The position numbers and the translations under genes were made by a program. Shown piece after piece: positions 2,071 through 61,977 of a stretch of DNA of 64,000 nt. The DNA is taken from assembly GCA_020851115.1 (NCBI GenBank), contig JADZDJ010000158.1, forward strand, positions 1 through 64,000, given 5' to 3'. Source of the DNA: Pirellulales bacterium (lineage in GTDB: Bacteria > Planctomycetota > Planctomycetia > Pirellulales > JADZDJ01). The notes beneath the pieces were generated by a model. That model saw nothing but the letters and a program-made list of their open reading frames with translations. It had not been told where the DNA came from and searched no databases. How positions within the stretch are numbered: the stretch's first letter is position 1; each line of letters begins with the position of its first letter.

Positions 2071-3462
2071 ATGAAGCACTGGACCACGCGATCATCGAAC
2101 GTCGCCCAAAGCATGACCTGGCCACACTGGCGGCTCGTGCTGCTGCTGATGACGATTTGTTATTTGGCTCATTTCAATCGTCAAAGCATGCCGGTCGCCG
2201 GGGATTTGCGGATCATGGAGACCTACGGTATCAGCCCGACGCAAATGGGGCTGGTCTATTCGGCCTTTCTGGCGACGTACACCTTGTTCATGATTCCAGG
2301 TGGCTGGTTGATCGACCGCACTGGCCCGAAGTTCGCGCTGCAGCTCATGTGCCTCGGTTCGGCGGTTTTTGTCGTCCTGACAGGATTGGTCGGCTTGGGG
2401 GCCGCAACGATGGCCGTCGCATTGCCGAGCCTGATCGTCGTGCGCGGCGCGATGGGGTTGATTAGCGCCCCGCTGCATCCAGCCGCGGCGAATGCCGTGT
2501 CGCTGGGCATCCCGGTGCTCCAACGCTCGGCCGCCAACGGCATGGTGACTGGCGCGGCACTATTAGGAATCGCCTCGACGTACGTCGTGTTTGGTGGAAT
2601 GATCGATTGGCTGACCTGGGAAGTGGCATTCGTCGCCGCCGGCGTGGCAACGATCGTGGTCGGAATGCTGTGGACCGTGTTTGCACCGCCCAGGGAAACG
2701 CCAGCCACCGCAGACGCTCGTTCGCCCGCGATGCGGCCGTCGGCTGCTCGGACCGCGGGGTTTTTCCGCCGCAATAAGAACTTAATCTTGGTGACGATCA
2801 GCTATTCCGCGGTCGGCTACTTTCAGTATCTGTTCTTTTACTGGATGCACTATTACTTCAAAGACGTGTTGAAATTGGGTGATGAACAGAGCCGCTGGTA
2901 TGCCACGATTCCACCGCTGGCGATGGCATGCGGCATGCCTCTGGGCGGTTGGCTTTCCGATCGAATTCAGTCGCTGTTTGGTTGGCGGGCGGCTCGGGGC
3001 GGCATGGCGGCAAGTGCGATGGTGGCCAGCTCGGTGCTGCTGTTGCTGGGGGTGCAAGCTCGGCAGCCGCTGTGGATCGTCGCTTGGATGTCGCTGGCGC
3101 TGGGTGTCTTGGGAATGCTCGAAGGTCCGTTTTGGGTCACGGCCGTCGAAGTCGGCGGCAACCGCGGCGGGCTGAGCGCAGGCATCTTCAACACGGGCGG
3201 AAATGTCGGCGGAATTGTCGCTCCGCTATTCACCCCCTGGATCAGCATCGATCTTGGATACGGGTGGCCCGCTGGTCTTGCCGTCGGCAGCATCGTATGC
3301 CTGATTGGCGCGGCGCTGTGGTTTTGGATCGACGCGCCGCGGCCGATCGCCTCTGCGCTGAACTTCGACGCGCCGCTATCCCCCGCTTGTTTTTCAAGGG
3401 CGGAACCGATACAAGCGAATTGCTTTTTTTCTCCAACCCATGTCATTCCTTTCACCGCCTGA
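2071..3462 (+). CDS. MFS transporter, sugar-acid/hexuronate (ACS-like) type
   Basis: About 463 residues with roughly twelve hydrophobic segments. An early helix pair is followed by the MFS loop motif GGWLIDRTGPK after helix 2, and the pattern LAHFNRQSMPVAGDLRIMETYGIS near the start resembles the anion:cation symporter group that takes up hexuronates, galactonate or glucarate. The middle loop (about residues 205-225) is Pro/Ala/Arg rich. The frame is open from 1963, but sequence before 2071 is not hydrophobic and reads like non-coding DNA; 2113 is another possible start. An enolase-superfamily dehydratase follows 32 bases downstream, which supports a sugar-acid substrate; the exact one is not known. 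Confidence 0.85.
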   Translation: MKHWTTRSSNVAQSMTWPHWRLVLLLMTICYLAHFNRQSMPVAGDLRIMETYGISPTQMGLVYSAFLATYTLFMIPGGWLIDRTGPKFALQLMCLGSAVFVVLTGLVGLGAATMAVALPSLIVVRGAMGLISAPLHPAAANAVSLGIPVLQRSAANGMVTGAALLGIASTYVVFGGMIDWLTWEVAFVAAGVATIVVGMLWTVFAPPRETPATADARSPAMRPSAARTAGFFRRNKNLILVTISYSAVGYFQYLFFYWMHYYFKDVLKLGDEQSRWYATIPPLAMACGMPLGGWLSDRIQSLFGWRAARGGMAASAMVASSVLLLLGVQARQPLWIVAWMSLALGVLGMLEGPFWVTAVEVGGNRGGLSAGIFNTGGNVGGIVAPLFTPWISIDLGYGWPAGLAVGSIVCLIGAALWFWIDAPRPIASALNFDAPLSPACFSRAEPIQANCFFSPTHVIPFTA

Positions 3463-3494
3463 GTAGGGCGAGAAGCCAAGTTGAGACGTTTCGA

Positions 3495-4763
3495 ATGAAA
3501 ATCACGAAGGTTGATTGCCACGTATTGTTGATTCCGAATTTCGACCCACTGGCCAATTCGTCGGCGCAGGACGATTTGGTGGTCGAGATTCACACCGATG
3601 AAGGGGTCACCGGAATTGGCGAAACCGACACAAACCCCTGGGTCGCCCGCGAGTGCATTCGCACGCGCGGAACGCATTGCATGGGATTGGGACTGGAAGA
3701 AATGCTCGTCGGCGCCAATCCCTTCGATATCGAGGGGCTGTGGAAAAAAATGTATAGTGGGTCGAAAATGACCGGCCGCCGGGGGGCGGTGATTTGCGCG
3801 ATCGGGGCCATCGATATGGCCCTGTGGGATTTGCGCGGCAAAGCCGCCGGGCAACCGGTGTATCGATTGCTCGGCGGCTCGAACGATCGGCCGATTGTCC
3901 CCTACGCGTCGCTGCTCCCCACGGGGCGCAGCGTCGAGCAGCAATGTCAGTCGCTCGTGGAAAAAGTTTGCGTCGCGCGGACGATGGGTTTCCGGGCCGC
4001 GAAGCTGGAAGTTTGCATTAATGGCCCGTACAGCCACCAGGGCTTGCAGGCCGACGACGAGTCGATGGTCGACATCGTGGGCGCATGCCGCCAAGCCGTC
4101 GGGCCAAATTTTACGTTGATGGTCGATGTGGCATACTGCTGGCCGAGCGCGCGGCATGCGCTGTCGGTCATTGAAAAGCTCGCGGCCTATGACCTGTTTT
4201 TTGTCGAAACCCCGATCGATATCGATGATTTGGAGGGCTATGCGTTCTTGCACCAGCATTCACCGGTAAAAATCGCCGCCGGCGAATGGCAGAATACGCA
4301 TTGGGAGTTTCTCGATCTGGCGGATCGTGGCATGCTCGATGTGCTGCAACCCGACATCGGCCGCGTGGGCGGCTTCAGCGAGGCGCGCAAAGTGTGCCAA
4401 ATCGCGGAACAGCGCAACCGCATCATCGTGCCCCATTGCTGGAAATCCGCGATTGGCATCGCCGCCAGCGCGCACATGGCCGCGGCCAGCTCCGCCTGCC
4501 GATATATCGAATTTTTGCCGTCGGAACTTTCAGAATCGCCCCTACGCCGCGAATTGGTGCTGGACGAATTGCAGATCGTCAATGGAGCCATTCAATTGCC
4601 CGAGAAACCAGGATTGGGCATCGAACTGAACCGCGATGCATTGGCGCGGTTTGCCGAAGGGAGTCCGACAAAGATCGTGGATGGCATACCCGCTCCGCAA
4701 TTTGCCCGCATTCGGGCTGGACGCAACGACGGCGCGCGGCTGGAATACTCCGCCGAATCGTAA
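3495..4763 (+). CDS. Mandelate racemase / sugar-acid dehydratase (enolase superfamily)
   Basis: 422 residues with the enolase-superfamily capping domain at the N-terminus and a modified TIM barrel. Metal ligands are visible as Asp in LMVDVAYCW, Glu in FFVETPID and Glu in IAAGEWQ. The His/Asp catalytic dyad is present as Asp in LQPDIGRVGG and His in IVPHCW, with a late Glu in YIEFLP, so it belongs to the mandelate racemase subgroup. The lysine motif that is KxK in mandelate racemase reads K-L-E here (FRAAKLEV), as in some acid-sugar dehydratases with altered second residue. Probable reaction: dehydration or epimerisation of a sugar acid brought in by the upstream MFS protein. The frame continues upstream to 2928 but that part is a shadow of the MFS gene. 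Confidence 0.85.
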   Translation: MKITKVDCHVLLIPNFDPLANSSAQDDLVVEIHTDEGVTGIGETDTNPWVARECIRTRGTHCMGLGLEEMLVGANPFDIEGLWKKMYSGSKMTGRRGAVICAIGAIDMALWDLRGKAAGQPVYRLLGGSNDRPIVPYASLLPTGRSVEQQCQSLVEKVCVARTMGFRAAKLEVCINGPYSHQGLQADDESMVDIVGACRQAVGPNFTLMVDVAYCWPSARHALSVIEKLAAYDLFFVETPIDIDDLEGYAFLHQHSPVKIAAGEWQNTHWEFLDLADRGMLDVLQPDIGRVGGFSEARKVCQIAEQRNRIIVPHCWKSAIGIAASAHMAAASSACRYIEFLPSELSESPLRRELVLDELQIVNGAIQLPEKPGLGIELNRDALARFAEGSPTKIVDGIPAPQFARIRAGRNDGARLEYSAES

Positions 4764-4918
4764 CTCATCCAGCGACTTTCGAATGGTTGGTTTGGCTGAT
4801 TTGCTGCGTCGCTGGAGAACCCTCCTGGGAAACGTCTGATTGCTTGCGGCTGCAAGTCACGCTTGATCGCCGCCGCCAGATCCTCGGTCGGCTTGTGTCG
4901 GAAACGGTTGTCGACTGA

Positions 4919-4945
4919 TTGGCGGAACGCCGGTTTGCCTACAAT
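4919..4945 (+). promoter_or_regulatory. Possible sigma-70-type promoter before DUF1080 gene
   Basis: TTGGCG (4919-4924) and TACAAT (4940-4945) are separated by 15 bases, followed by ATAATAG. The -10 is good but the spacer is short. It sits 50 bases before the ATG at 4995 in a 231-base gap, a reasonable place for a new transcription unit. Confidence 0.3.
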
Positions 4946-4994
4946 AATAGCTGGTTGACAAGCCATGAATCATTTGTCACTCCAGGAGAAACCT

Positions 4995-5846
4995 ATGCTT
5001 CCGTTTCGCACAAGAAGATTTTACGTCACTTGGGGCCTGCTGCTGATTGTGGCTTGCCCGCGGTTGGCCAGTGCCGCGGAGCCTGGCACCAGCGAACGTA
5101 ACGCTAGCGACCAGAAAATCCACCTCTTTAATGGTAAGAATCTCGACGGTTGGTACGTGTTCACGGAGCAGACAAAGTTTGAAAATCCAGGCGTCTTTCA
5201 AGTCGTCGATGGCACGATTTACGCTCCCGGAGGCAATGAGGAGACTGCCTATCTGGGCGGCTTGATTACCCGGCAGTCATACAAGAACTATCGCTTGAAG
5301 CTGGAGTATAAGTGGGGCGAGAGAACCTATGGTCATCGTCAAGGAAAAGCCCGCGATGCCGGCGTCCTGCTCCATTGTTTCGGCCCAAACGGTCCCGGTC
5401 CGTGGATGAATTCCTTCGAGTTTCAAATCATCGAAGGAGGCACGGGAGATTTGCTGGTTGTCAAAATCGACCCTCGCGATGGCGAGGATGATCGAATCGC
5501 CCTGACCTGCATCGGCGAGATTGAGAAACGCGCCGAGGCTCCCTACTTCAAGCCCGGTGGGGAACAATACACGTTCAAGAACGATGGCCGGCTGAACTGG
5601 TGGGGCCGCGATTTGAAGTGGCAAGATGTCACCGGCTTTCGCGGCCGGGAAGATCTCGCCAGCCCGCATGGCGAGTGGACGACATGCGAAATCGTCGCGC
5701 GTGGAAACTCTCTGGAATACTACGTCAATGGAAAACTGGCCAACCGCGCTGCCGGTCTGAGCGTCTCGGCCGGAAAGATATTCTTGCAGACCGAAGGGGC
5801 TGAACTCTGGTACCGCAACATCGAACTCATGCCTTTGAACGGGTGA
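4995..5846 (+). CDS. Secreted DUF1080 (3-keto-disaccharide hydrolase-like) protein
   Basis: 283 residues. An N-terminal signal peptide (basic start, hydrophobic core to about residue 25, ASA-AE cleavage) indicates export. The family hallmark LFNGKNLDGW begins near residue 44, and the domain runs to the C-terminus with conserved AGVLLHCFG, EFQIIEGG and late EYYVNGKLAN segments of a jelly-roll fold. Members of this family (PF06439) include 3-keto-glucoside hydrolases and laminin-G-like sugar-binding proteins; planctomycetes have many. The ATG at 4995 has AGGAG seven bases upstream, so it is preferred over 4965. A ceramidase-like secreted hydrolase follows 50 bases later. Confidence 0.88.
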   Translation: MLPFRTRRFYVTWGLLLIVACPRLASAAEPGTSERNASDQKIHLFNGKNLDGWYVFTEQTKFENPGVFQVVDGTIYAPGGNEETAYLGGLITRQSYKNYRLKLEYKWGERTYGHRQGKARDAGVLLHCFGPNGPGPWMNSFEFQIIEGGTGDLLVVKIDPRDGEDDRIALTCIGEIEKRAEAPYFKPGGEQYTFKNDGRLNWWGRDLKWQDVTGFRGREDLASPHGEWTTCEIVARGNSLEYYVNGKLANRAAGLSVSAGKIFLQTEGAELWYRNIELMPLNG

Positions 5847-7439: not shown

Positions 7440-10400
7440 ATGAAGTTACCTGAATTTATCAACGCCAACGTCAAAAGTATGCATCACGTCCTCAAATCAC
7501 TACTATTTGCATCCCTGACGGCCACGTGCGCTTGGTGCTTTGCCGATGCTCCATTGCAAACTTTTGCAAAACCTCTTGCACCCGACGAAGCGCTGAAGCA
7601 CTTTCACCTTCCTCCGGGTCTCAAAATCGAACTGGTTGCCGCGGAACCGGAAGTTGTCGATCCGGTTGCCGCAGCGTTCGATGAAGATGGTCGGCTGTGG
7701 GTCGTCGAGATGGGTGATTACCCGAATGGGCCGACCCCAGGACTTCCGCCGCAGTCTCGCATCAAACGACTCCAAGATCGCGATGGCGACGGCCGCTACG
7801 AGACTTCGCAGGTGTTCGCGGATGGCTTGTTGTTTTGCAACGGACTGCAACTTTGGCGTGGGGGAGCCATTGCTACGTTGTCGGGCGAGGTGGCCTATTT
7901 TCACGACGGTGATGGGAATGGGCGTGCCGACTCGCCCGAAACGTGGTTCCAAGGATTTAGGGAAGAGAATCCGCAATTGCGCGCCAACCATCCGACGTTG
8001 GCTCTCGATCATCAGGTGTACGTGGCCAATGGATTGCGCGACGGCGATATCATCGCGGCGCGGGAAGCGTGGCGCCACGAGGCCAAGCCGCTTTCGCTCA
8101 GCGGCATGGATTTTCGATTCGACCCACGCACCGGACAGTACGACACGGTGAATGGCTTTGGGCAGTTCGGCCTGAGTTTCGATGATTTCGGGAATCGGTT
8201 TATTTGCTCGAACCGAAACCCATGCATGCAAGTCGTGCTTGAGAATCGTTACATTCGCCGCAATCCGCGCCTGGCCCTATCGAGTGTCGTTCACGACGTC
8301 TCTCCGCCGGCTGAGAATTCCCGACTATTTCCCCTCACGCGCGCCTGGACAACGTCGAATTTGCATGCCCGGCAATTTACCGCCGCCTGTGGCGTGACGA
8401 TTTATCGCGGCGACGCATTGCCCGCGGAATATCGGGGAAATAGTTTCACCTGCGACCCGACTGCCAACCTCGTTCATCGCGACGTGCTGGAACTCCATGA
8501 AGTTGTATTCGATGCCAAACCGAATTCCAGCCAGGCCGATTTCCTGGCCTCTTCGGATGAGTGGTTTCGCCCAGTCGATCTGACGCATGGCCCGGATGGC
8601 GCACTGTACGTGATTGACATGTACCGAGCGGTGATTGAGCATCCTGGCTATATGCCCGACGAATTGAAAAATCGCCCGGAAAACACCTGGGGCAATGATC
8701 GCGGGCGGATCTATCGAATCGTTGCGGCCGATCATGGTCCCATTCAACCAAATCGACTCTTGCCCAAGCTCTCTTCAGCATCGCAAGACGAGTTGATCGC
8801 GCTTTTGGAACATCCGAGCAGTTGGCATCACGAAACAGCGGCGCGATTACTATTGGAACGAAACGATCCTTCGATGTGCGACAAGCTTCAACTCATGGTC
8901 TCTCAGGGGAAGTCGCCGCATGCTCGTCTACATGCGTTATGGCTGATGCAGGGTCTCGATCGGTTGACCCCCGAGTTGGTGCGCGCGGCCCTGGAGGACT
9001 GCGATCCGTGGGTGCGGTCGCATGCCGTGCGGTTGGCGGAACCCTGGCTCAACGCACACGCCGATTTACGTCGGCGCGTGCTGGCGTTGGCCCACGATGA
9101 CGCTGCCCAGGTACGATTTCAAGTGGCGCTCAGCCTGGGCGAGATCTTACCACAAGCACAGACGGCCGAAGCCGCAGCGACTTTGGCCGAGATCGCCATC
9201 CGCGATGCGGACAATTCGTGGATCCGAACGGCCGTTGCCACGTCGATTGCCGAGTCTGCGCCAGCGGTGTTGCAGATCGTGCTGCAACGTGCGGTTGAAC
9301 CCGACTGCCTGAGTCGTCCTGGCTTCTCCGATCTCGTATTGGAGCTTTCCCGCCTGGTAGGTGCCAACCAAAACATCGGTGAAATCGGCAGCGCGATTAC
9401 CACCCTTGAGCCATTCCTCAAGTCTGCCGCCGATACGGATGCCTTTCTAGCCGCACGGCGCGACTTGGTATTCAAGTGCTTGATTGGTTTGGGCCAGGGT
9501 GCGGATCGTCGAGGTAAGTCGCTGGCCGTTTATCTGCCGCAATTGAGCGATCGTCAACAGCAATTGCTCCGAGAGGTTTTTGCCACGGCCGCGAAGGCGG
9601 CGCGGAATGTGCAATTGGATTCGAGCCGCCGCAAACTAGCCATTCAAGCCTTGCGATATGCAACGTTTCCCATCGCTGGCAAACTGCTGCCATCCCTGAT
9701 CGCCGACGACCGCGATCAAACGATTCGAATCTTGGCGATCGAAACTCTCGGCGCGTTTGATGATCCTTCGATTGGCCCCACCTTGCTAGCCGGCTTTGTC
9801 CACGAGACTCAGGCGACGCGCCGTGCGATTCTCAACGCCATGCTTGAACAGCCTCAGCGAATTCGACGGCTGCTCGATGAACTTGAAGCAGAAGGAATCA
9901 CGCCTGCGGACTTGCAACCCGATCAATGGCAACGATTGGCTACTCAAAGCGACGAGGAACTACGACATCGGTCCGAACGATTGCACGCTGCCGCAACCCC
10001 GATGGATCGGCAGCCGGTGATCGATCAATATCGCCGCGTGCTGACGATGCCCGCAGATTCCGAGCGAGGTAAGCAAGTGTTTGTGAAAAATTGCGCTACT
10101 TGCCATCGTGTGGCCGAACTAGGCGTCAATGTGGGGCCCGATATTTCCGACTCGCGAACGAGGCTGGCCGAACAATTCCTCGTGGACATTCTCGATCCCA
10201 ATCGCGCTATCGACAACCGTTACTTTAGCTACTCGCTATCGCTCACCAGCGGACAAATCGTGACCGGCATCATCGCAGCCGAGACGGCTTCCTCCGTCAC
10301 GCTCCGCGAGCCAGACGATAAGACGCGGACGGTGCTCCGAGAAGACATCGACACATTTCATTCCAACGGCATCTCGCTGATGCCCACCGGTCTCGAACAA

Positions 10401-10496
10401 GCAATTTCGCTTGAGCAGATGGCCGACTTGATTTCGTTCTTGAAAAACTGGCGCTATCTCGAAAAACAAACCGCGGCCGCGCCGGCAACGAACTAG
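7440..10496 (+). CDS. PVC-type membrane-bound dehydrogenase with HEAT repeats and C-terminal heme c
   Basis: A 1018-residue exported protein. After a signal segment (about residues 14-36) comes a six-bladed-propeller dehydrogenase-like domain (to about residue 430) with FDEDGRLWVVEMGDYP, NGLQLWRGG and PDGALYVIDMYR, the marks of the putative membrane-bound dehydrogenase family. Alpha-helical HEAT-like repeats follow (about 440-860), then a small cytochrome domain with CATCH at 885-889 and a distal GVNVGPDIS. Such giant proteins occur by the dozen in planctomycetes and are thought to oxidise polysaccharide-derived substrates and pass electrons to respiration. Start is ambiguous: 7440 or the ATG at 7479 directly before the signal peptide. 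It converges with the respiratory operon. Confidence 0.85.
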   Translation: MKLPEFINANVKSMHHVLKSLLFASLTATCAWCFADAPLQTFAKPLAPDEALKHFHLPPGLKIELVAAEPEVVDPVAAAFDEDGRLWVVEMGDYPNGPTPGLPPQSRIKRLQDRDGDGRYETSQVFADGLLFCNGLQLWRGGAIATLSGEVAYFHDGDGNGRADSPETWFQGFREENPQLRANHPTLALDHQVYVANGLRDGDIIAAREAWRHEAKPLSLSGMDFRFDPRTGQYDTVNGFGQFGLSFDDFGNRFICSNRNPCMQVVLENRYIRRNPRLALSSVVHDVSPPAENSRLFPLTRAWTTSNLHARQFTAACGVTIYRGDALPAEYRGNSFTCDPTANLVHRDVLELHEVVFDAKPNSSQADFLASSDEWFRPVDLTHGPDGALYVIDMYRAVIEHPGYMPDELKNRPENTWGNDRGRIYRIVAADHGPIQPNRLLPKLSSASQDELIALLEHPSSWHHETAARLLLERNDPSMCDKLQLMVSQGKSPHARLHALWLMQGLDRLTPELVRAALEDCDPWVRSHAVRLAEPWLNAHADLRRRVLALAHDDAAQVRFQVALSLGEILPQAQTAEAAATLAEIAIRDADNSWIRTAVATSIAESAPAVLQIVLQRAVEPDCLSRPGFSDLVLELSRLVGANQNIGEIGSAITTLEPFLKSAADTDAFLAARRDLVFKCLIGLGQGADRRGKSLAVYLPQLSDRQQQLLREVFATAAKAARNVQLDSSRRKLAIQALRYATFPIAGKLLPSLIADDRDQTIRILAIETLGAFDDPSIGPTLLAGFVHETQATRRAILNAMLEQPQRIRRLLDELEAEGITPADLQPDQWQRLATQSDEELRHRSERLHAAATPMDRQPVIDQYRRVLTMPADSERGKQVFVKNCATCHRVAELGVNVGPDISDSRTRLAEQFLVDILDPNRAIDNRYFSYSLSLTSGQIVTGIIAAETASSVTLREPDDKTRTVLREDIDTFHSNGISLMPTGLEQAISLEQMADLISFLKNWRYLEKQTAAAPATN

Positions 10497-10642: not shown

Positions 10643-12115
10643 TCATGGAACATCCTGCGTCGGTGTCCGTGCCGGTGCAGCACCCAAAGGAACAAGTTGC
10701 GTTAAAAAATCCACCAGCGCCGTCATTTCGGCCGGTGAAATCTGTTTTCCGTACGCGGGCATGTTGCCACCGCCGGGCGTGCCGTTGCTGACTTGGTCGA
10801 TGAGTTGATCGGTCGTCATCCGCTGGCCGACGTGCGTCAAGTCGGGACCGCGCTTGCCACCGATGCTGTCGAGCGAGTGGCAATTGCGGCATTGCTTATT
10901 TTGGAAGACGACGGCTCCTTGAAGTTGAAGCGGCGAAAGCGTGCGCTCTTTTGAAGCGATCAGCTCCGTGGGAATCGGGTCGCTGCTCCAGGCCGTCATG
11001 ACCGGCGACCACGGCGCGGTATGTCCCAAATGGGTCAGTGCTCCTAAGGTGGTGTAGATGAAAATGACCAGCAGTACCGCCACGGGACGTCGGCTCGGTG
11101 CTCGCTCGCCGCGGTTAGAGATGAGCGGAACGGCCAGCAATGCCAAGATCAAGGCAACCGGCAGGATCAGCATGATGACCGTTTCAGCACTCGGTGGGCT
11201 AAGCGCAAGCAATGCGAACAGCCATAAAAACGGCCAATCGGGACGCGGATTTGCGCCGGGAAGCGTTGGATCGGGAGGGGCGCTCGGTCCTTTGGGCCCG
11301 GCGACTGCGGCAATGCCGACCACTGCGATAACCACGAGCGCCGAGAAGATAATGTCTTTCAAAATCGGTTCGGCGTTGAAGGGCACGCCGTGCTCGTGTG
11401 TGTCCCGTTCATACTCGGAATCGTACGTCGCCGGATCGACCCTTGCGCCGGCTTTTGGCGGCGCACTGATCCCCCTTTTGAGAATCAGCCACAGGTGAAT
11501 GGCCAAAAAGAACATCAAAGCGCCTGGAATCACAAACACATGCAGCGCGAAAAAACGGCTCAGAGTATCACCGCCGATGATCGCCCCCCCAAGCAATAAA
11601 TCAACGATCGTCGGCCCCGCTTCGGGCACGCGGCCCGCCATCGAAGCCCCGACGCCCACGCCCCAATAGGCATCCGGATCCCATCGCAAAACTTGCCCCG
11701 TAAAGGCCATTCCCAGCGTACAAAGCAGCAACAGTACGCCAACAAGCCAAGTTAATTCGCGCGGATACTTGTAGGAGCCGTGTAAGAACACTTGGGTCAT
11801 ATGGACCAGCACCAGTACCACCATGGCCGAACTGGACCAATAGTGGAGTGAGCGCAAGAACCAGCCCCATGGCTGCTGATAGTTCAAGTAGAGGAGGCTT
11901 TCGTAGGCCTGGTCGGCGCTAGGAACATATGTCAGCGCCAGCCCAATGCCCGTGAGGATTTGAATCAAAAACAACGTCAACGATGCGCTCCCAAACACAT
12001 ACCACCACCCCAGCGGCCCAGCGATCTCGCGCGGCACCGGATGGCGCAGCATCGGCATGAACGTCTCGCGAATGCCGAGCCGAAAATCGATCCAGTCGTA
12101 GATGCGTTTGAACAT
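10643..12115 (-). CDS. Cytochrome b (bc-type complex) with C-terminal cytochrome c domain
   Basis: 490 residues, last gene of the respiratory cluster. The N-terminal cytochrome b/b6 part carries the four heme ligands His91, His105, His192 and His207; the second pair has 14 residues between the histidines, as in cytochrome b6 rather than mitochondrial b. A PDWPFLW segment near 292 replaces the quinol-site PEWY motif. Further helices follow, then a periplasmic cytochrome c domain with CRNCH at 409-413 and a distal Met (GNMPAYG). The protein therefore seems to combine cytochrome b, subunit IV and cytochrome c1 functions: it would oxidise quinol with the Rieske protein encoded just upstream and pass electrons to the oxidase of the same operon. 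Confidence 0.92.
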   Translation of the reverse strand: MFKRIYDWIDFRLGIRETFMPMLRHPVPREIAGPLGWWYVFGSASLTLFLIQILTGIGLALTYVPSADQAYESLLYLNYQQPWGWFLRSLHYWSSSAMVVLVLVHMTQVFLHGSYKYPRELTWLVGVLLLLCTLGMAFTGQVLRWDPDAYWGVGVGASMAGRVPEAGPTIVDLLLGGAIIGGDTLSRFFALHVFVIPGALMFFLAIHLWLILKRGISAPPKAGARVDPATYDSEYERDTHEHGVPFNAEPILKDIIFSALVVIAVVGIAAVAGPKGPSAPPDPTLPGANPRPDWPFLWLFALLALSPPSAETVIMLILPVALILALLAVPLISNRGERAPSRRPVAVLLVIFIYTTLGALTHLGHTAPWSPVMTAWSSDPIPTELIASKERTLSPLQLQGAVVFQNKQCRNCHSLDSIGGKRGPDLTHVGQRMTTDQLIDQVSNGTPGGGNMPAYGKQISPAEMTALVDFLTQLVPLGAAPARTPTQDVP

Positions 12116-12154: not shown

Positions 12155-12718
12155 TCACCCTCTCACCGGCTGATCTGCGCGAAGTGTTCGTTGCAGCGTC
12201 GGCAAATGCGGCGCTTGAATTTCAAGTTGATTTGCCGAATTCACGCGCCACTCGCAGTGATATAGCCCACGCGGCGGCGGGCCGCTGGCGTGATCGCCGT
12301 TCGCGTAGTACACGCCGCCGTGGCAAGGGCACATGAACAATCCTGACTGTGGAAACCATTCGACCGGGCAACCCAAATGCGTGCAATTGATCGCGAAAAC
12401 TTGAAATTGATGTTCGAAGCTCTGGCGACCGAGATAGCGAACATAAACGCCGGTATTCGCCGTGATGCCATCCCACGGTTGCCCGAGTGGATTGACAAAG
12501 GTTTTCAGCCGCGTTTCGTTTTCGGGAAACTCATCGACGGGCCCGAGATTCACCCAATCGACTTGATCTTTGAGCTTGCGGCATGCCGCAGCGGCCAAAT
12601 AACCAATACCGGGAATCGCTACGACAGTCGCGGCGGCAGCGCTTGCCAAGCCGCTGAGCAGCATGAGAAACGTTCGTCGCGGCGGTTCCGATATTCGATT
12701 TCGCCTGGAATTTGCCAT
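12155..12718 (-). CDS. Rieske iron-sulfur protein of the bc-type complex
   Basis: 187 residues. A basic RRTFL segment followed by a hydrophobic helix (about residues 13-47) gives a Tat-type signal anchor. The C-terminal domain has both [2Fe-2S] ligand boxes, CTHLGC and CPCHGG, with the usual Cys-His pairs, so the cluster should be intact. It is the quinol-oxidising partner of the cytochrome b gene 39 bases downstream. The frame also offers an ATG at 12733, but that would overlap the upstream gene; the ATG at 12718 has GGAAAG upstream and leaves a four-base gap. Translational coupling with the diheme fusion gene is likely. Confidence 0.92.
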   Translation of the reverse strand: MANSRRNRISEPPRRTFLMLLSGLASAAAATVVAIPGIGYLAAAACRKLKDQVDWVNLGPVDEFPENETRLKTFVNPLGQPWDGITANTGVYVRYLGRQSFEHQFQVFAINCTHLGCPVEWFPQSGLFMCPCHGGVYYANGDHASGPPPRGLYHCEWRVNSANQLEIQAPHLPTLQRTLRADQPVRG

Positions 12719-12722
12719 AAAA

Positions 12723-14300
12723 TCACTTTCCATTCCTTGTCATGCGCCAATGATTCAGCAGCGCCATCAAATCGTTCACATCACCGGCCGTCAGCGGTTT
12801 GAAATCGCTTTCGCGGCCGCTTCCGTCGGCAAAATCGGGCATTTGTAAATCAGGCCTGCCGGTAATGATAATCCTCCGCAGTAGCGCGTCGCTGACGAGC
12901 GTCAGGAACGCGTGGTTGTTGATTGCGCCGGCATCGTCCTCCACGCCCTCTCCGCTTTCGCCGTGACAAGTAGCGCATGCGGTCGCAAATACCTTCTTAC
13001 CGCGATCGACGCTACCATTTGGACTGTCTGCGGCAAGTAGAGGCGGGGTATTCGGCGAAACAACCTTTGCCGCCGATGTCCATTCGCCGCTCCACTTACG
13101 TCCTTTGATCCCTTCGACAAGCGAGGCAATTTGACGGTTCGTCAACGGGCCACCAGCCGACTGCGACCACGCCGGCATGAGTGTTCCCTTGCGGCCGTGA
13201 GAGATCACGTCCTGCAATTCTTCATCGCCGACGAGAGCCATGAACAAGGGATCGTTCAGCGGTGGTCCGGCCCCGAGCGTGCCATCGGCACCGTGGCACG
13301 CGGCACATCGTTGTGAATACAACTCCTGGAAATCGGTAATCTTCGAGGGCATCGCAAATTCGTTGGCCCGCACAGGCTTGCCGGGAAAATTGTCGTTGCA
13401 GCCGGCCAATCCGACGAGAATCAGCGCGAGACATCCCAACCAGCCTGGCGGCGGAGAAGGCGCATCTTGGTCGCGACCCGGCCCACGAGGTCGGATTGGA
13501 ATTTTTTCTGATCGCATAATTACCAACGATGCCGCCACGCCGTAAATAAACTGAGATACGACGAACCACAGCCAGTTGACGTAGTTGTGAAGTAGCGGAT
13601 TTACTACGCCCATCAGCGAATGGCTGGCAGCCGTCCAAAGCGCCGGCAGCACGATGCCGCCCAAGACTAGTGGTCCGCCCGGCAGCGGTGGCAACGTCGG
13701 TAGAATGACGCCATAAATCAGCCCGATACCGATGGACATGGCGACATGAATCACAATGGCAATGAAGAAGGGCCCGGGCAAGAATCGCTGGAGATGCTCG
13801 AGAACTTGTTGCGACGACCCTTCGTCAAGCCCCGGAAGCACCATGCCGGCCAGAAGATTCACCGGGAACCAGATGCCGTGGCCGCTGAGCCAGCTCCACA
13901 CGATCGCTGGAATCGGCATAATGGCGCCGCCCACGATGCCCCCTTTGAAGCCAGCCGTGACCGGATGTACTTTTTCTGGGAGTTGAAAGCGGTAGCCGAC
14001 GACGCCGGGCTTCAGTTGTTCGACAGCGCCTACGCGAGGGGCAATCGCTGTGGGCCGCTCGGCTGGGGACGCCAATTCTTCCAGTTCGTGGCCGCGGCCA
14101 GGCAAGAGTTGCGAAATCCATCCAAGCAGCGCGACAAGAAACAGCACTCCACCGACGAACGTAAACGCGATGCTGGTAGCCAGGCCGAGCATCAGCAGCG
14201 TAGTTCCTGCGGCCAGCACGATGGGCCACGCCGTCGGCGCAGGCATCATGATTTTGCCGTCGGCCTCCTCGTGTGATAGGTTTTCGTGGAAATTGCTCAT
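12723..14300 (-). CDS. Three-part fusion: two membrane domains and a diheme cytochrome c
   Basis: 525 residues from ATG 14300 (14318 is an alternative start). Residues about 19-68 form a two-helix hairpin beginning PAPTAWPIVLAAG, resembling small cytochrome oxidase accessory/subunit IV segments. Residues about 118-262 form a second membrane domain with several helices and no motif I recognise. Then comes an internal signal-like helix ending in LVGLAGC (Cys301), which looks exactly like a lipoprotein signal, followed by two cytochrome c domains with CAACH (332-336) and CATCH (442-446). It lies between coxC and the Rieske gene in one operon, so it probably shuttles electrons between the bc complex and the oxidase. 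The lipobox inside the chain suggests a fusion of formerly separate genes. Confidence 0.85.
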   Translation of the reverse strand: MSNFHENLSHEEADGKIMMPAPTAWPIVLAAGTTLLMLGLATSIAFTFVGGVLFLVALLGWISQLLPGRGHELEELASPAERPTAIAPRVGAVEQLKPGVVGYRFQLPEKVHPVTAGFKGGIVGGAIMPIPAIVWSWLSGHGIWFPVNLLAGMVLPGLDEGSSQQVLEHLQRFLPGPFFIAIVIHVAMSIGIGLIYGVILPTLPPLPGGPLVLGGIVLPALWTAASHSLMGVVNPLLHNYVNWLWFVVSQFIYGVAASLVIMRSEKIPIRPRGPGRDQDAPSPPPGWLGCLALILVGLAGCNDNFPGKPVRANEFAMPSKITDFQELYSQRCAACHGADGTLGAGPPLNDPLFMALVGDEELQDVISHGRKGTLMPAWSQSAGGPLTNRQIASLVEGIKGRKWSGEWTSAAKVVSPNTPPLLAADSPNGSVDRGKKVFATACATCHGESGEGVEDDAGAINNHAFLTLVSDALLRRIIITGRPDLQMPDFADGSGRESDFKPLTAGDVNDLMALLNHWRMTRNGK

Positions 14301-14477
14301 CGTTCGCTGCGCGGGCATTCACTGCAAAAATCGTGGGATTCGGATGCGAACTTTTACCAACCGTGCCATTGGCTCAGCGTGCGTTTCTAACATCGGTGTA
14401 CAGGGGCAGAGGAGCTTCATGGAAACCGTCACTTCGTGCAGGCATTTGCAGTATGGAGTCATCGGTTTGTCACCATG

Positions 14478-15122
14478 CTATCGCCCAATCAAATAGACGA
14501 GCGAAAATACGACGATCCACACGCTATCGACAAAATGCCAATACCAGGAAACGATTTCGACGCCGACGTGGCTGGAGTTGTCCAATCTTTTTCGCAACGC
14601 CAGTACCCAGAAAATTGAAAGTATCATCAGACCGACGGTTACGTGTGTGGCATGGAAGCCGACGAGCGTGAAATAGGTGCTGCCGAACAAATTGCGGCTG
14701 ATGGTCAGCCCCCAGCGACCGATCAAATCGCTCCACTCCTTGGCGGTGCAGGCGATAAACGTTGCCCCAAGAACAATCGTCAGCCCCCACCAGCCCAAAA
14801 AGCCCGCGCGGTTGCCGTTGCGAAAGGCACGCGCTGCAAAGTGAACGGTAGCGCTGCTAGCCACCAGACAGCCCGTTGCGGTAAGCACCAGTGGTAGATG
14901 AAACACGGTCGCCGGGCTGGGATTACTCCCTTTGGTTTGCCGCAAGAAGACAATATACGTGGTGATCAGAGTGCTAAAAAAAGCGACTTCGGAAAGCAAA
15001 AACGCGCCCATCCCGACATGGGTCGGCAGTAGGCGGCAAGCGGCAGGCGGTGTTGATAAAGTGGCCGAACCGTCGGCTTGCGCCGTTGCAAAGTTTTCTA
15101 AGCTGGATTTTGGAATGTTCAT
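14478..15122 (-). CDS. coxC: Cytochrome c oxidase subunit III
   Basis: 214 residues with five hydrophobic segments, as in the short bacterial subunit III. Recognisable features are the start THVGMGAFLLSEVAFFSTLI, the EW pair in ACTAKEW, and FTLVGFHATHVTVGLMIL with HF in SWYWHFVDSVWIVVF, all standard for the family. The subunit surrounds subunit I in the membrane and is thought to help proton entry and stability. It follows coxA by about 60 bases on the same strand. Confidence 0.93.
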   Translation of the reverse strand: MNIPKSSLENFATAQADGSATLSTPPAACRLLPTHVGMGAFLLSEVAFFSTLITTYIVFLRQTKGSNPSPATVFHLPLVLTATGCLVASSATVHFAARAFRNGNRAGFLGWWGLTIVLGATFIACTAKEWSDLIGRWGLTISRNLFGSTYFTLVGFHATHVTVGLMILSIFWVLALRKRLDNSSHVGVEIVSWYWHFVDSVWIVVFSLVYLIGR

Positions 15123-15180: not shown

Positions 15181-16833
15181 TCATTCATACTTCCAATCTG
15201 GATCGTCCGGGTGCTTCACATCCCAGAGAGGCCGACGGCTGCGGACCGTCGGCGTTTCTGAGAAGTTGTAACTGGGTGGCGGTGAAGTGGTGGCCCATTC
15301 AAGCGTCCAGGCATCCCACGGGTCGTCACCAGCCGGCCTGCCATATCGCAGAGACCAGCCGATGTTAATGACGAACAGTAAATAGCTGGGGGCTTGAATC
15401 ATCGCGCCCAGCGAACTGAGCTGGTTCCAAAGCTGCCAAGGGCGATCCGCTTGGTAGGTAAAAATCCGCCGCGGCATGCCGAGCAAGCCAGAGACGTGCA
15501 TTGGTCCGAAGGTAAGAATAAATCCGATCAGCAGCAACCAGAACTGCCACTTTGCCAATCGTTCGGACAGCATCCGCCCAGTGACTTTGGGAAACCAATA
15601 ATGGATTCCCGCAAACACGCCGAACACGGTGCCGCCGATCAGTACCCAATGAAAATGTCCGACGACAAAATAGCTGTCGCTGACCTGAAGGTCGAACGGC
15701 GCTGAGGCCAACATGATGCCCGTAAGTCCGCCGAGCACAAACATCGCTAAAAAACCGACGGCAAACAGCATGGGTGAGGCCATCCACAATCGGCCGCCAT
15801 ACATCGTCGCGAGCCAGTTGAAGAATTTGATCCCGGTAGGAATGGAAACGAGCAAACTCGCGGCCGCGAAATACATATCGAGCGTGCGGCTCATCCCGGC
15901 GGCAAACATGTGATGCGCCCAGACGCCCATGCTGATGAATACGATACCCATGGTGGCGGCGGCCATAAACTCGTAACCGAACAGAACTTTTCGCGAAAAC
16001 ACGGGCACGACTTCGGTAATCATTCCAAACGCCGGCAAGATAAGAATATAGACCTCAGGATGTCCAAAGAACCAAAACAAGTGCTGCCATAGATAGGCCG
16101 AGCCGCCGTTTTGTGGATTGAAAAATTGAGCGCCAAGCACGCGGTCGAACTCGACCATAATGAGCGCCGCCGTCAAAGGAGGTATGGCGACGAGTATCTG
16201 CAGCGATGTCCAGAGCATCGTCCAGCAAAAGAAGGGCAATTTGGTCAACGTCATGCCAGGACAGCGCATCGTAAGAATCGTGGCGACGAAATTCACGCCG
16301 GCCGCAATCGTGCCGACGCCACTGACAAGCAGGCCCAGTGCCCAAAAATCGACGCCGGACTTTGGTGAAAAAGTCGTTTCCGTCAGCGGCGCGTACGCGA
16401 ACCAACCGACCGCTGGCGGCCCACCCGGCACAAAAAAGCTGAAATATGCGAGGCAGCCGCCGAAGAGTGTCGTCCAAAAGCCAAAGGCGTTGACGCGGGG
16501 AAAAGCCATGTCATGTGCCCCAAGTTGCAACGGCACAACATAGTTGGCAATCCCAATCAAAATTGGCATGCCCATGAAGAAGACCATCGTGGTGCCATGC
16601 ATCGTAAAAAACTTATTGAACGTATCGGGATTGAGAAAATCATTGCCCGGCTTGATGAGCTGCCAGCGAATCGCGAGCGCCTCACAGCCCGCCACCACTA
16701 GAAAAAATATGGCCATCAGCACATACATCACTCCGATCCGCTTGTGATCGACCGTGACGACCCACTCGTGGAGCACGGAAGTCCACGAAGGGCGGCCAAG
16801 TGTGGCGGCAGTGGTTGGAGAGATGGTTGCCAA
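15181..16833 (-). CDS. coxA: Cytochrome c oxidase subunit I
   Basis: 550 residues, twelve hydrophobic segments. The catalytic core of an aa3-type oxidase is intact: heme a ligand His in FTMHGTTMVFF, CuB ligands in WFFGHPEVYI and WAHHMF, and heme a3/a ligands in VGHFHWVLIGG. Proton pathways look like A-family enzymes: Asp in GAHDMAFPRVNAFGFW (D channel), Glu in GHPEVY, and Lys in PTGIKFFNW (K channel). It reduces oxygen to water and pumps protons. It lies downstream of coxB with about 100 bases between, and upstream of coxC. The C-terminus is extended by about 50 hydrophilic residues. Confidence 0.96.
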   Translation of the reverse strand: MATISPTTAATLGRPSWTSVLHEWVVTVDHKRIGVMYVLMAIFFLVVAGCEALAIRWQLIKPGNDFLNPDTFNKFFTMHGTTMVFFMGMPILIGIANYVVPLQLGAHDMAFPRVNAFGFWTTLFGGCLAYFSFFVPGGPPAVGWFAYAPLTETTFSPKSGVDFWALGLLVSGVGTIAAGVNFVATILTMRCPGMTLTKLPFFCWTMLWTSLQILVAIPPLTAALIMVEFDRVLGAQFFNPQNGGSAYLWQHLFWFFGHPEVYILILPAFGMITEVVPVFSRKVLFGYEFMAAATMGIVFISMGVWAHHMFAAGMSRTLDMYFAAASLLVSIPTGIKFFNWLATMYGGRLWMASPMLFAVGFLAMFVLGGLTGIMLASAPFDLQVSDSYFVVGHFHWVLIGGTVFGVFAGIHYWFPKVTGRMLSERLAKWQFWLLLIGFILTFGPMHVSGLLGMPRRIFTYQADRPWQLWNQLSSLGAMIQAPSYLLFVINIGWSLRYGRPAGDDPWDAWTLEWATTSPPPSYNFSETPTVRSRRPLWDVKHPDDPDWKYE

Positions 16834-16934: not shown

Positions 16935-17969
16935 TTACTTCAAACTCATCAAGTAGTCGGTGATCCAATCGATCTTTTGTTCGCTTAATCCGAACGCCGG
17001 CATCAGGCAGCCGACTTTGATTTCCTGCGGATCGCGAATCCACTTGCGCAAATTGTCGCGCGTCAGTGGGATCATGCAGCCGGCAAACGTTTCACGCGCG
17101 GCAAGATGCGTTAGGTTGGGGCCGAAAGCACCCTGCGCGGGTGTGCCGCGAATCGTGTGGCATTTCACACACGATTCGGTGAGAAATATCTGCTTGCCGT
17201 TGCGCACCGAAGGATCATCAACGGCCGGCTTGGTTTCATTGGCCAACCACGCTTGAAACTCAGCTTCCGACTCGACGTACACGCGAAGCAGCATATGGGC
17301 ATGTTGAGTGCCACAATATTCGGCGCATTGTCCTACATACAGTCCAGTCTCGCGAGTGGCAAACCACATCTCGTTCTTGTTGCGGCCTGGAATCAGATCG
17401 GTTTTTCCCGCCAGCCGCGGAATCCAAAAGCTGTGACAAACGTCGGCCGATCGCAGGTTCAAGTAAATCGGCCTCGGCTGTTCGGCCGTGCTTGCAGGAA
17501 TGTGCAGCTCATTGGCTGTTACCACGCCAGGCTTCCGCTGACCGTCCCGTTCAATCACGTATTCCCACCACCACTGGTGACCAATGACGGTCACATTCAG
17601 GATCTTCGCCGATTCGGGCTGCTGTTGTTCGCGCACATGTACCTGAAACTCGGTGCGCACGATAACCAGGGTTAGCAAAAACACGATCAACCCAGGTGCG
17701 ACCGTCCAGGCGACTTCGATCGGCAAACTACCGTAGACCTGCGGTGGTTCGGTTGTGGGCAGACCGTCTTTAAGGAGCCGCGGGCGTCGAAATTTCAACA
17801 GTGAATAAAACAGTACGCCCCAAACGATCGCCAAGATAAATGCCGCGGCGGCCGTTACGACAATGAAGAGAAACCGAATCGATTCGGCCGGCGGCGACGC
17901 TGGACTCAACGTCGATACATCCAGCGCTTGGCTGGCTGCGGCGGCCAATAAAATCAATTTGGGCATCAT
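16935..17969 (-). CDS. coxB: Cytochrome c oxidase subunit II with fused heme c (caa3 type)
   Basis: 344 residues. A signal peptide and two transmembrane helices precede the cupredoxin domain, whose CuA site is complete (GHQWWWEY, late CAEYCGTQHAHM). A C-terminal cytochrome c domain follows with CVKCH and a distal Met, so this is a caa3-type subunit that accepts electrons directly on its own heme. The frame is open to 18122, but ATG 17969 is preceded by AAGGGG and begins a proper signal peptide, whereas the upstream residues do not. First gene of the respiratory operon; the 420 bases upstream separate it from the divergent pgl gene. Confidence 0.93.
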   Translation of the reverse strand: MMPKLILLAAAASQALDVSTLSPASPPAESIRFLFIVVTAAAAFILAIVWGVLFYSLLKFRRPRLLKDGLPTTEPPQVYGSLPIEVAWTVAPGLIVFLLTLVIVRTEFQVHVREQQQPESAKILNVTVIGHQWWWEYVIERDGQRKPGVVTANELHIPASTAEQPRPIYLNLRSADVCHSFWIPRLAGKTDLIPGRNKNEMWFATRETGLYVGQCAEYCGTQHAHMLLRVYVESEAEFQAWLANETKPAVDDPSVRNGKQIFLTESCVKCHTIRGTPAQGAFGPNLTHLAARETFAGCMIPLTRDNLRKWIRDPQEIKVGCLMPAFGLSEQKIDWITDYLMSLK

Positions 17970-18390
17970 CGGCCCCTTGGTTAGACGACACGCCTTCGTC
18001 GCCAGCTTCCATGAATCCGTCGAAATATCCGCGATGGGGGGCGAAGCACTCGATCGAAATGCGGAGTTGAAGTCGCATTCCCTTTGCCGCAACAATCGTC
18101 GAACGGCTCGGCAATCGACCAAGAGCTTCGCTTACTACGTCCAGCGGCGCGCCGATTTTCGCCAGCCAATCGTAGACGGCTACCTGCATAATGTATAAAA
18201 CTAAGTGGCGGCGGTAAAGCGAAACTTGGCTAGAAGTTTAGTTTCGTTCCCCAGGTCGCGCTCTTCATCCTCCGCCGTGATACAGCGGCGGAGGAATCAT
18301 AAGAAATCGGTTGAATGGATCGCTCGCTGCCTCACTTCCTCAAGTTGGAGAGCGAAGAGTGCGGTAGCGGCGATCGGAGCGGTTCTCGCC
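17970..18390. other. Divergent intergenic region between cox operon and pentose phosphate operon
   Basis: About 420 bases between coxB (minus) and pgl (plus). It should hold the promoters of both operons. I see no convincing -35/-10 pair. A perfect 10-bp hairpin lies at 18268-18295. Open frames here are extensions of coxB and pgl and do not look coding. Confidence 0.5.
18268..18295. repeat. Perfect 10-bp inverted repeat upstream of pgl
   Basis: TCCTCCGCCG (18268-18277) and CGGCGGAGGA (18286-18295) flank an 8-base loop. In the plus-strand transcript this would be a very stable hairpin about 95 bases before the pgl start. It has no T-run and could be an operator, a leader hairpin or a repeat-family member. 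Confidence 0.45.
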
Positions 18391-37342: not shown

Positions 37343-40300
37343 TCATGCGACTGCGGTCGCGCGGCGAAAGCTCGCCCAAAATCTCAGCGGCAACAGGCCA
37401 ATGCCAATCATGGCCAATTGGCTGAGGCAGAATATGCCCAGCGCCACCAGCACCCCTTCGGTAAAACCGTAGGAGTGCAACCCGACGCCAAGTTGATTGA
37501 CGCCGAATAGCGACCAACCAGTGATGATGTTTCCACCGATGGCAAGCACCGCCATGCCGCGGTCCTTGACCAGCCCATCCCAGCGGGCGTGCAGAATAAG
37601 TGCATTCCAGAGCACGATAATCAGCGCGCCATTTTCTTTCGGATCCCAGCCCCAAAATCTGCCCCAAGAATCGTCGGCCCACAGCCCACCTAGTACGGTG
37701 CCGACGAAGCTGAAGAAGATGCCGAAGCACACCGTGCCATAAATCATCCGCGCCAAGCTCTTGCTCTCCTCGGCACTGAGCGATCGCGTGAAGACACCGC
37801 GGATCACATAAATCAAGCCGAGAATTCCTGCGATGAAGGTGGTCGAGTTGCCTAGGGTAATACACGTCACATGGGTGGCCAACCAAAACTGGGTATCGAG
37901 TACGGCCTGCATCACGCCCACCGTATCGCCCCGGGTCATGTCGTACACCAGCGAAAGCCTGTCGGCGATGATCAGCGAAGCGAAGCCGGCGACCGCAGCC
38001 AAAATGTTGCCGAATCCCAACCGGTACACTCGCTCTAAAACCAATCCCGCCAGTACGCCTGCCCAGCCGATGAAGATCGACGCCGAATAAAGATTGGTCA
38101 CGGGCGGTCGACCGGATATGTGCATTCGCGCACACAACGCGAAGGTGTGGGCCAAAAACGTCACAGCGATCAACCAAAACGCCGTGCGGTTCAGCGTCCG
38201 GCTCCACCCCAACCAGGCCAAAGCCGCAAAACAAAACGCTGCAAAATACAACCATTGGCACTTGAGGAACGGCCCCCATGTGTTGAACCAAAATTCAAAT
38301 CCAGGATGTGCGTGGTTCAACTGCGCCGGCGAGAGCTTGTCTGTCAGCCGCGCATAGTCGTGAACGGCTTGGTTGAACCTGGCGGCGTCTTGGCTGCGGT
38401 ACGCGTCGAGAATCGAGTCCCAGGCCACTAGCGCCGGATTGATCGGTGCCGGCGGCTCGTTGGGCATCAGTTCGTTCTTGATGCGCGGCTGGTACGCTTT
38501 CAGCCAGGCGATTGAATAAGGCTCCCACTTGATGGGAGTATTGAGGTCCAGGCCGTTGCCAGCGTCGGATTCATCGAGTCGAGGAATCGCACACGGTGGA
38601 GAAGATTCCGCCATCTCGGCTTCCAGCCGCGGAATAGCCGCCAGCACTTTTTTGATCGTTTCCAGCCTCGATTTCAAATTGGCAGGATCTTTTTTCAATA
38701 CATCGAGCGAGGGCAACGGCAGGTGGTTGAATGCTTCGTTTTGAAACAAATACAAATCGAGCCGGCTCCGTAGCTCCATTAATTTCTTGTCGAATATCGT
38801 ATGCTTTGCCTCGTCTCTTACTTCTCGGACGCGTTTGACTTCGTCGTCGAATTTTTCGCCCTGCTGTTGCAGCTCGGCTAGCGAGTAGCGGAAGTACTTG
38901 CGACGATCGAGGCCGAACGTGGCCAGCACATCGGGGTTTTCGATGCGAAAAACTCGGTGCTGCTGGGCAACCTCTGGACGAGCGATCGCGTCGAGAAACC
39001 AGCGCGTGGCCGGTTGATATTCATCGAGACCCATGATCCGTTTCAAGGCCGAAGGATGATTGTCGCTGGCATCGACATAGACCTCCCGTGAGGAAATCAT
39101 TCGCAGCGTGTTCCGCGCCAATGAATCGATGGGCTGAATTCGACCACCGGTGTTGATGCGAATTCGGCCGAATGCGTCAAAATCCATCTGCTCCAGCGGA
39201 GCCGAACGAGGAATCGCCGCGGATAAAAGAACCGCGGCGGCCAGCGACGCGGCCATCCACGGCAGCCAGCGCCCAAATTTGGATGCAGGGTGGATCGCAG
39301 GCCCAAGCAACGTCGCCGCGCCCGGCACGACCGGCGCTTCTCGGCGGCGAACGAATCGCGTGAGCACCAAGCTAAACTGAGCGAGCATTCCCGTCGCCAC
39401 GATCATGCACGCCAGGTACGGAATCATCCAACCGAAATTGGAAACCACCGAGATTCCGGTCAGCACAGGAATCGGATTGCTTGATTGATAGAAGGTCTCG
39501 CCGCCATACCGTAGCGGCTCGTTCATTCTGATTTTGGCGCGCCGATCCACGCCAGCCTTGGCGTCGACGAGTTGGAATTCCGACGAGTAACTCTTGGGAA
39601 CCTGCGTTCCTGGATAATTCTCGCGCTCGACATCGTAGAGGTGGATGGAGTACGGTTTGTAATCGCGCTCGAACCGCAACACAACCTGATACGTCTTGTC
39701 TCCTATGCCGACCGACTGCTCGTCGCTTCCCAATCCCACCAACGCAAGCTGCGTGGTATTTAGCAAGTACGTTCCCAAAGAGTGCCCACTGGAATGCTCG
39801 AAGAACTCCACATAAGCAGCAGGCATGTTCTGTTCGCCCCCGTCCGCGCCGGTGACGGTTCGCAGGGGAACCAGGACTGCCCCCTTGTTGCTGCCGGCGG
39901 TTACTTCGATCTCGTCCTCGGGCTTGGCATTTCGAACGGCCCCATTGTCGGCGAGCGACTTGACTTGAATATCCACGGGTAACCCGCCGGGCCGGGAAAT
40001 CCGATGTCCTGTGGCGGCGCTGTCGCGCAGAAGCTGCTCTGGAACAACCACGACGTCCTGCTCCGCTTCGCTGTAGCCTCGATTGATTATCGCCAATTCA
40101 AACGAGCGAAGATCGGTGCCGTAGTTGGTGGATTGGCCCTCGGAAACGTACAGCATCGTCTCCTTATGCAGCGAATAGACGAGTAGTTCGTTCAGCATGA
40201 GCAGCAACACGCCGGCATGCAGCAGCACGATCCCAGCTCGCTTGCGAAACACCAATAGACAGCCGGCCAGCAGGACGGCGGCGGCAAAGGCTCCTTCAAT

Positions 40301-61113: not shown

Positions 61114-61977
61114 CTACAACAATTTTCCAATTTCGTAGATTTCTTCCGCGTCGAGGACCAAGCCGTTGGTTTCAAACATCCGCTGAATTGCTGCTTTGTG
61201 AATTTTCATCTTGGTGCCGCCGACGCCCAACGCTCCGTAGCAGATGAGACGATCGCGCTGTTTCGCTTTGTCCATCACGTCAACACCTTCGATGCCCAAC
61301 GGCGGCACGGCGTTCAGGTCGATGGCGACGGCCAGCGATTGGCAGCCACGAAGCACGTCGGCGGGCAGCAGTGTTACTCCCGCTGCCCCGGCCGCAATCA
61401 CCACGGCGACTCCCTCCAACGCGGCCCGTAGTTCGCCGGCCGAATTCGTGGCGATCGGGGAAATCACAGCATCCGTTGCCCGCTGCTCAATGGAACGGCA
61501 GACCGCCTCTGCCTTGCGCAAGTCGCGAGAACCGACGCGCACTGTGGCTCCTTCTCGCGCCAGTAGCCGGGCCGCGCGATTACCGACCGGACCGGTTCCG
61601 CCGAGCACCAAGGTCGTCTTGCCGCGCAACTCGCAGTGCTTGGCGGCCGCCAAGACGGCGGCCGCCGCAGTGGTGTTCGAGCCGTTGGGATCGAGCATCG
61701 CCGAAACGCGCATCGGACCGAAGAACGTCTGGCGAACTTCGTCGAACAGCGCTTCGCTGGCCTTCACGTCCGACCCGCCGACAAAAATTGCCGTTGCTTT
61801 TAAGTCCTCTGGACCGCGAGTAAAAATCGCGCCATGCACCAGGGCGCGCACCTGAGCGGCCGACACGCCTCCATGGCGAAAGAGCTGATTGACGCCTGCG
61901 TCTACGGCCACCACCGAGTCGAACACGCTCGGCTGCGGGTCGGGATCGAGTTGCAAAAGAATTTTCGACTTGGACAT
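61114..61977 (-). CDS. mtdB: Methylenetetrahydromethanopterin dehydrogenase (NAD(P)-dependent)
   Basis: 287 residues. The NAD(P)-binding region is LVLGGTGPVGNRAARLLAREGATV with GSRDLRKAE just after; the N-terminal VVAVDAGVNQLFRHGGV, LDPNGSNTTAAAAVLAA and the late ALGVGGTKMKIHKAAI match MtdB of methylotrophs. It oxidises methylene-H4MPT formed by Fae, encoded 160 bases upstream on the same strand, so the pair catalyse consecutive steps of formaldehyde oxidation. Planctomycetes are known to carry these C1 genes. A long imperfect hairpin lies between the two genes. Confidence 0.92.
   Translation of the reverse strand: MSKSKILLQLDPDPQPSVFDSVVAVDAGVNQLFRHGGVSAAQVRALVHGAIFTRGPEDLKATAIFVGGSDVKASEALFDEVRQTFFGPMRVSAMLDPNGSNTTAAAAVLAAAKHCELRGKTTLVLGGTGPVGNRAARLLAREGATVRVGSRDLRKAEAVCRSIEQRATDAVISPIATNSAGELRAALEGVAVVIAAGAAGVTLLPADVLRGCQSLAVAIDLNAVPPLGIEGVDVMDKAKQRDRLICYGALGVGGTKMKIHKAAIQRMFETNGLVLDAEEIYEIGKLL

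Follow-up and report, generated by a model that had tools for sequence, protein, structure and literature searches.

Why should one gene, lying between a caa3 oxidase and a bc complex, encode membrane helices, a lipoprotein signal and a dihaem cytochrome c in a single chain? The question is posed by a 531-aa reading frame in the window, by which we mean the whole 64,000-nt stretch of Pirellulales DNA analyzed here. A first-pass annotation had read the frame as a hairpin resembling an oxidase accessory subunit, an unfamiliar membrane domain, a lipobox and two CxxCH domains. The frame itself, Pfam searches and hydropathy all agree with that description. We term the parts HP (hairpin), MD (membrane domain) and CC (the dihaem cytochrome c, aa 325–525), and collect their positions, with those of the neighboring genes, in Table 1.

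Table 1. The fusion gene, its parts and its operon neighbors, in window coordinates
Feature	Position	Strand	Evidence or remark
coxB (caa3-type subunit II bearing a cytochrome c at its C-terminus)	16935..18122	-	PF00116, PF00034; TIGR02866 above cut-off
coxA (oxidase subunit I)	15181..16833	-	PF00115; TIGR02891 above cut-off
coxC (oxidase subunit III), 5' neighbor of the fusion gene	14478..15122	-	PF00510, 1.4e-22
Fusion gene HP-MD-CC, 531 aa	12723..14318	-	Single frame, stop-free; same fusion in genome G001
HP, two-helix hairpin, COX IV-like, aa 25-75	14094..14246	-	PF12270, sub-threshold
MD, four-helix membrane domain, aa 110-275	13494..13991	-	Alignments A1/A2
K/R-rich cytosolic linker (predicted) where the join sits, aa 269-288	13455..13514	-	Hydropathy and charge; purifying selection over junction
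TM7, putative retained lipoprotein signal, lipobox LAGC	13398..13454	-	Cys307 codon at 13398-13400
Cytochrome c domain 1 (CAACH at aa 338-342; Met381 the likely axial ligand)	13089..13346	-	PF13442; alignment A3
Cytochrome c domain 2 (CATCH at aa 448-452; Met493 the likely axial ligand)	12744..13016	-	PF00034; alignment A3
Rieske iron-sulphur protein	12155..12733	-	PF00355
Cytochrome b with fused C-terminal cytochrome c	10643..12115	-	PF00033, PF13442

The gene does sit where the annotation had put it, at the junction of the two complexes. Gene order is coxB-coxA-coxC-fusion-Rieske-cyt b/c, all on the minus strand, with coxC upstream and the Rieske gene downstream, the latter overlapping the fusion gene by 11 nt. 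The oxidase is of caa3 type, on the strength of CoxA and CoxB scores above the TIGR02891 and TIGR02866 cut-offs and of the PF00034 cytochrome c domain on CoxB. What links bc complex and oxidase here is a shared operon. Four more COX1 homologs are encoded elsewhere in this genome, so this bc-caa3 branch may be one of several. Other genes of the window include one for a PVC-type haem protein (7440-10496; TIGR02604, above cut-off), itself suggestive of planctomycete or verrucomicrobial DNA, one for a 1231-aa System II fusion protein of cytochrome c maturation with ResB-like and CcsB/Cytochrom_C_asm parts (37343-41038), and one for a methylene-tetrahydromethanopterin dehydrogenase-like protein (61114-61977; Mpt_N, 6.5e-33).

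Reality of the join was examined in other genomes. All three genomes examined of one family have it: that of the window (G000) and two (G001 and G002) that share a second genus. The G001 fusion is complete, with 59% identity to the window protein over aa 9–526; the G002 contig starts inside the gene, cutting off the HP part, and holds MD and CC in one frame. Identity of the two to the window protein is 59–60%, and both are free of stops. Relatives have two genes at this position, often overlapping by a few bases, which would suit an assembly or frameshift artefact; against this, the same MD-CC join recurs in three different genomes drawn from two genera. Moreover, codons over the junction have a pN/pS of 0.27–0.44 and zero indels among the three fusions, indicating purifying selection across the join. 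An artefact has a negligible probability on this evidence, and the frame error that the annotation had named as its own refutation is ruled out by the two further genomes. Nor is the layout common by chance: of 1560 TM-like windows in the neighboring subunits, just 10 are closed by a lipobox-like motif. The fusion is confirmed as a true gene, neither chance nor assembly error.

Its parts are unequally familiar. Both cytochrome c domains of CC score above their Pfam cut-offs (PF13442 and PF00034), and in alignment A3 the CxxCH and Met-Pro motifs are invariant or nearly so. HP matches Cyt_c_ox_IV (PF12270) over aa 27–69 with E=0.0009 and 19.8 bits, below the gathering cut-off of 26.9, so the accessory-like character claimed for the hairpin is borne out as a resemblance short of family membership. 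The membrane domain proved as unfamiliar as had been said: aa 70–320 have zero Pfam matches, and MD of the window protein matched nothing in Pfam, NCBIfam or PDB. PDB sequence searches with HP-MD likewise returned nothing. AlphaFold2 gave low-confidence models of the window protein alone and of MD with one distant relative (pLDDT 43.6 and 56.7), and Foldseek on these models found chance matches only. The most conserved loops of MD are SGxGIWxPVNLL and an NP..W stretch, both predicted to be periplasmic, on the same side as CC. Its alignment lacks any conserved motif of the Cys, His-pair or Met-rich kind. We rejected MD as a haem-b binder for want of a conserved His pair, which makes it unlikely that this domain holds haem.

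Hydropathy gives seven hydrophobic segments. The seventh (TM7) begins near aa 289, behind six predicted TM helices, and is closed by the lipobox LAGC (aa 304–307), in agreement with the mid-chain placement first noticed. K/R-rich loops at aa 69–125 and 269–288 predict an N-in topology with CC outside; TM7 would then take CC to the periplasm, the orientation required of a lipoprotein signal. The segment has a lipoprotein signal's hydrophobic stretch ending in a lipobox and its positive cytosolic flank (269–288), and is located mid-chain rather than N-terminally in the encoded protein.

We compared HP-MD loci from the same order, from the rest of the class and from more distant members of the phylum, including six loci outside the class. 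Within contig limits, the other loci examined read coxB-coxA-coxC-HP-MD(-MD)-CC-Rieske-cyt b. Across the class and in the six outside loci, HP-MD or HP-MD-MD is a single gene, and CC is the next gene, encoding a separate lipoprotein; the parts are thus next-door neighbors in relatives, the check that the annotation had proposed. Its claim of a fusion of separate genes stands for two genes and not for three: HP and MD are already one gene in every relative having MD in a cox-bc operon, and what has been joined anew is HP-MD to CC. In another clade HP lies directly upstream of the Rieske gene with MD and CC jointly absent, in the order coxB-coxAC-ctaG-HP-Rieske-cyt b. There HP is mostly a stand-alone gene of about 71–77 aa, matching the HP HMM at E 1e-12 to 1e-14. 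Members of that clade (L098, 5866-8097; L096, L097, L099-L104) have coxA and coxC fused into a gene for a protein of about 743 aa; in those checked, ctaG lies between coxAC and the Rieske-adjacent HP gene. Taken together, the single HP-MD gene of relatives and the solitary HP of the other clade indicate that HP-MD is old and that its joining to CC is new and family-specific. The simplest reading of these gene arrangements is stepwise, HP and MD having joined early and CC solely in the fused family.

MD also occurs without HP, in Thermoflexus (L051), L105 and L106, where the examined stretches contain neither cox nor bc genes. A scan of genome contigs with the window protein alone yielded solely a Thermoflexus MD. 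In L106 the lone MD-like protein (1029-1574) has as its neighbor a small protein (328-969) that bears a CxxCH-like motif. In one clade MD is tandem within one gene of about 430 aa (HP-MD-MD: L033-L037, L039, L040, L084-L087, L115, L116), apparently from one duplication with one subsequent loss (L110). In a quick tree of the other operon proteins, with SH-aLRT support only, the fused family falls outside this MD-MD clade. Given this placement, we reject an origin of the fusion by collapse of tandem MD copies; a single MD is probably older, and the fusion did not come about through repeat loss. In L087 (9353-10900) the first half of CC shares a frame with Rieske and its second half is in another frame (9807-10277), likely a frameshift or assembly error. 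L050 encodes a 960-aa protein with several tandem CC-like cytochrome c repeats (2530-5412), in a genome without an HP-MD match.

How closely are the two joined genes associated where they remain separate? Profile searches of the same 398 genomes of the class (CC threshold E<=1e-30) found HP-MD in 37 and CC in 37, the identical set; these genomes are related and do not amount to 37 independent events. Shared distribution, adjacency and fusion suggest that MD and CC are working partners. In the reading that we consider probable, the gene combines two ancestral neighbors from a bc-caa3 superoperon, HP-MD and CC, in a fusion particular to this family, and its product forms a dock plus a dihaem relay. 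HP would sit with the oxidase and MD would dock CC at the membrane. Electrons would then pass from Rieske to the cytochrome c on cytochrome b, on to CC, and from there by way of CoxB's own cytochrome c to CuA, and the relay would dispense with a free soluble carrier between bc complex and caa3 oxidase. Encoding in one fused gene would provide for 1:1 synthesis and co-insertion of MD and CC.

MD might instead serve assembly, aiding cofactor insertion or CC, rather than act as a structural dock. The presence of ctaG between coxAC and HP in the HP-only operons implies that this operon position tolerates assembly genes, and PDB sequence searches give MD no solved relative. Yet it has none of the conserved Cys, His-pair or Met-rich motifs just discussed, and its strict pairing with CC in 37/37 genomes, together with the fusion, argues against such a role; we regard an assembly role as unlikely. 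The gene draws attention to HP-MD, a probable membrane subunit of planctomycete bc-caa3 operons for which we found no name, tied to a dihaem cytochrome by co-occurrence and natural fusion, which suggests an electron route between the complexes.

Whether the dock and relay stay in one chain depends on the lipobox. Among 52 CC sequences, the three fusions included, a script found the lipobox Cys in 49. The three exceptions are L114, where the start was mis-picked and the motif is actually AAGC; L110, which has the Cys in a weaker context; and L039, which has no Cys. All three fusions keep the Cys while the preceding helix has diverged (LALILVGLAGC, LLMFCVLFSGC and FVLVAVLLVGC), a conservation that rests on three related genomes. 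Lgt and LspA are both encoded in the window's genome. TM7 is best read as the old lipoprotein signal; Cys307 may therefore still be lipidated, and LspA may cut the chain there, restoring the same pair of subunits that the ancestor had and relatives have.

The annotation's fixed electron bridge is thus one of two options, the conserved lipobox and the two enzymes allowing cleavage. In the bridge option the lipobox is a relic, TM7 is a signal anchor and the product is a permanent seven-helix dihaem subunit. TM7 is plausible as a TM helix with a K/R-rich cytosolic flank, and the linker is conserved. The separate CC of L039 (5177-6040) offers a parallel: its signal, which ends in TAGA, has no lipidation site and presumably stays on as an anchor, so lipidation is dispensable in L039. 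Such an uncut tether is a real possibility, if somewhat short of an even one, in view of the retention of Cys307 and its lipobox in 3/3 fusions despite helix divergence, and of the genome's Lgt and LspA. We lean slightly toward Cys307 being lipidated and the chain being cut. We found no precedent for signal peptidase II cleavage behind six TM helices.

Two products might also come from one frame by an internal start ahead of the lipobox. At aa 268 the window gene carries an in-frame ATG, and a start there would yield a K/R-rich n-region; this codon is Ile in G001 and G002, however, and no start is common to the three fusions. Shine-Dalgarno-like motifs are also lacking at the candidate starts in the three genomes, a weak argument because the operon's true starts lack one too. 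Internal initiation is very improbable. To return to cleavage, we tentatively suggest a respiratory polyprotein, perhaps no less possible than the tether: a six-helix membrane subunit and a dihaem lipoprotein would be translated as a single chain, which Lgt/LspA would split at the internal lipobox after co-insertion. With its lipobox in mid-chain, the protein is well suited to asking whether these enzymes recognize a signal placed inside a chain, after six TM helices.

Consistent with the annotation's remark that no described protein has exactly this order, we found no named respiratory subunit with the HP-MD-CC arrangement in Pfam, NCBIfam or the papers searched. Partial resemblances do exist. 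For HP, the likeness to Cyt_c_ox_IV is to its last two helices, about 45 aa only, and MD has no counterpart in that family. Relatives of MD show weak similarity only to DUF1440, DUF6789 and YqhR, all below the curated cut-offs of these functionally uncharacterized membrane families.

For CC, the best NCBIfam match is CcoP of cbb3 oxidases (TIGR00782), which likewise places a pair of CBB3-type cytochrome c domains after a TM segment; the score is 46.4 bits against a cut-off of 179.95. The neighbors here are coxB, coxA, coxC, Rieske and cyt b, not ccoN/ccoO, and the oxidase is caa3, not cbb3. In Actinobacteria, complexes III and IV are joined by the dihaem cyt cc, QcrC (PMC8361435). Like QcrC, the fusion protein is a membrane-anchored dihaem cytochrome c, with two CxxCH domains, encoded in a bc operon. 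It scores 43.6 bits against the QcrC model NF050122 (curated cut-off 200), which places it outside that family, and it differs in that CC is preceded by HP, MD and a lipobox and that cytochrome b and CoxB each bear a cytochrome c of their own. By analogy, it may be QcrC-like in working at most, without being a QcrC family member.

A precedent for one chain giving two respiratory subunits is FbcH of Bradyrhizobium japonicum, in which cytochromes b and c1 are made as one chain and then cut in two. Both proteins combine a respiratory membrane protein and a cytochrome in one chain with a mid-chain signal sequence. They differ in the subunits joined and in the signal, which in FbcH has no lipobox and here is of the lipoprotein type.
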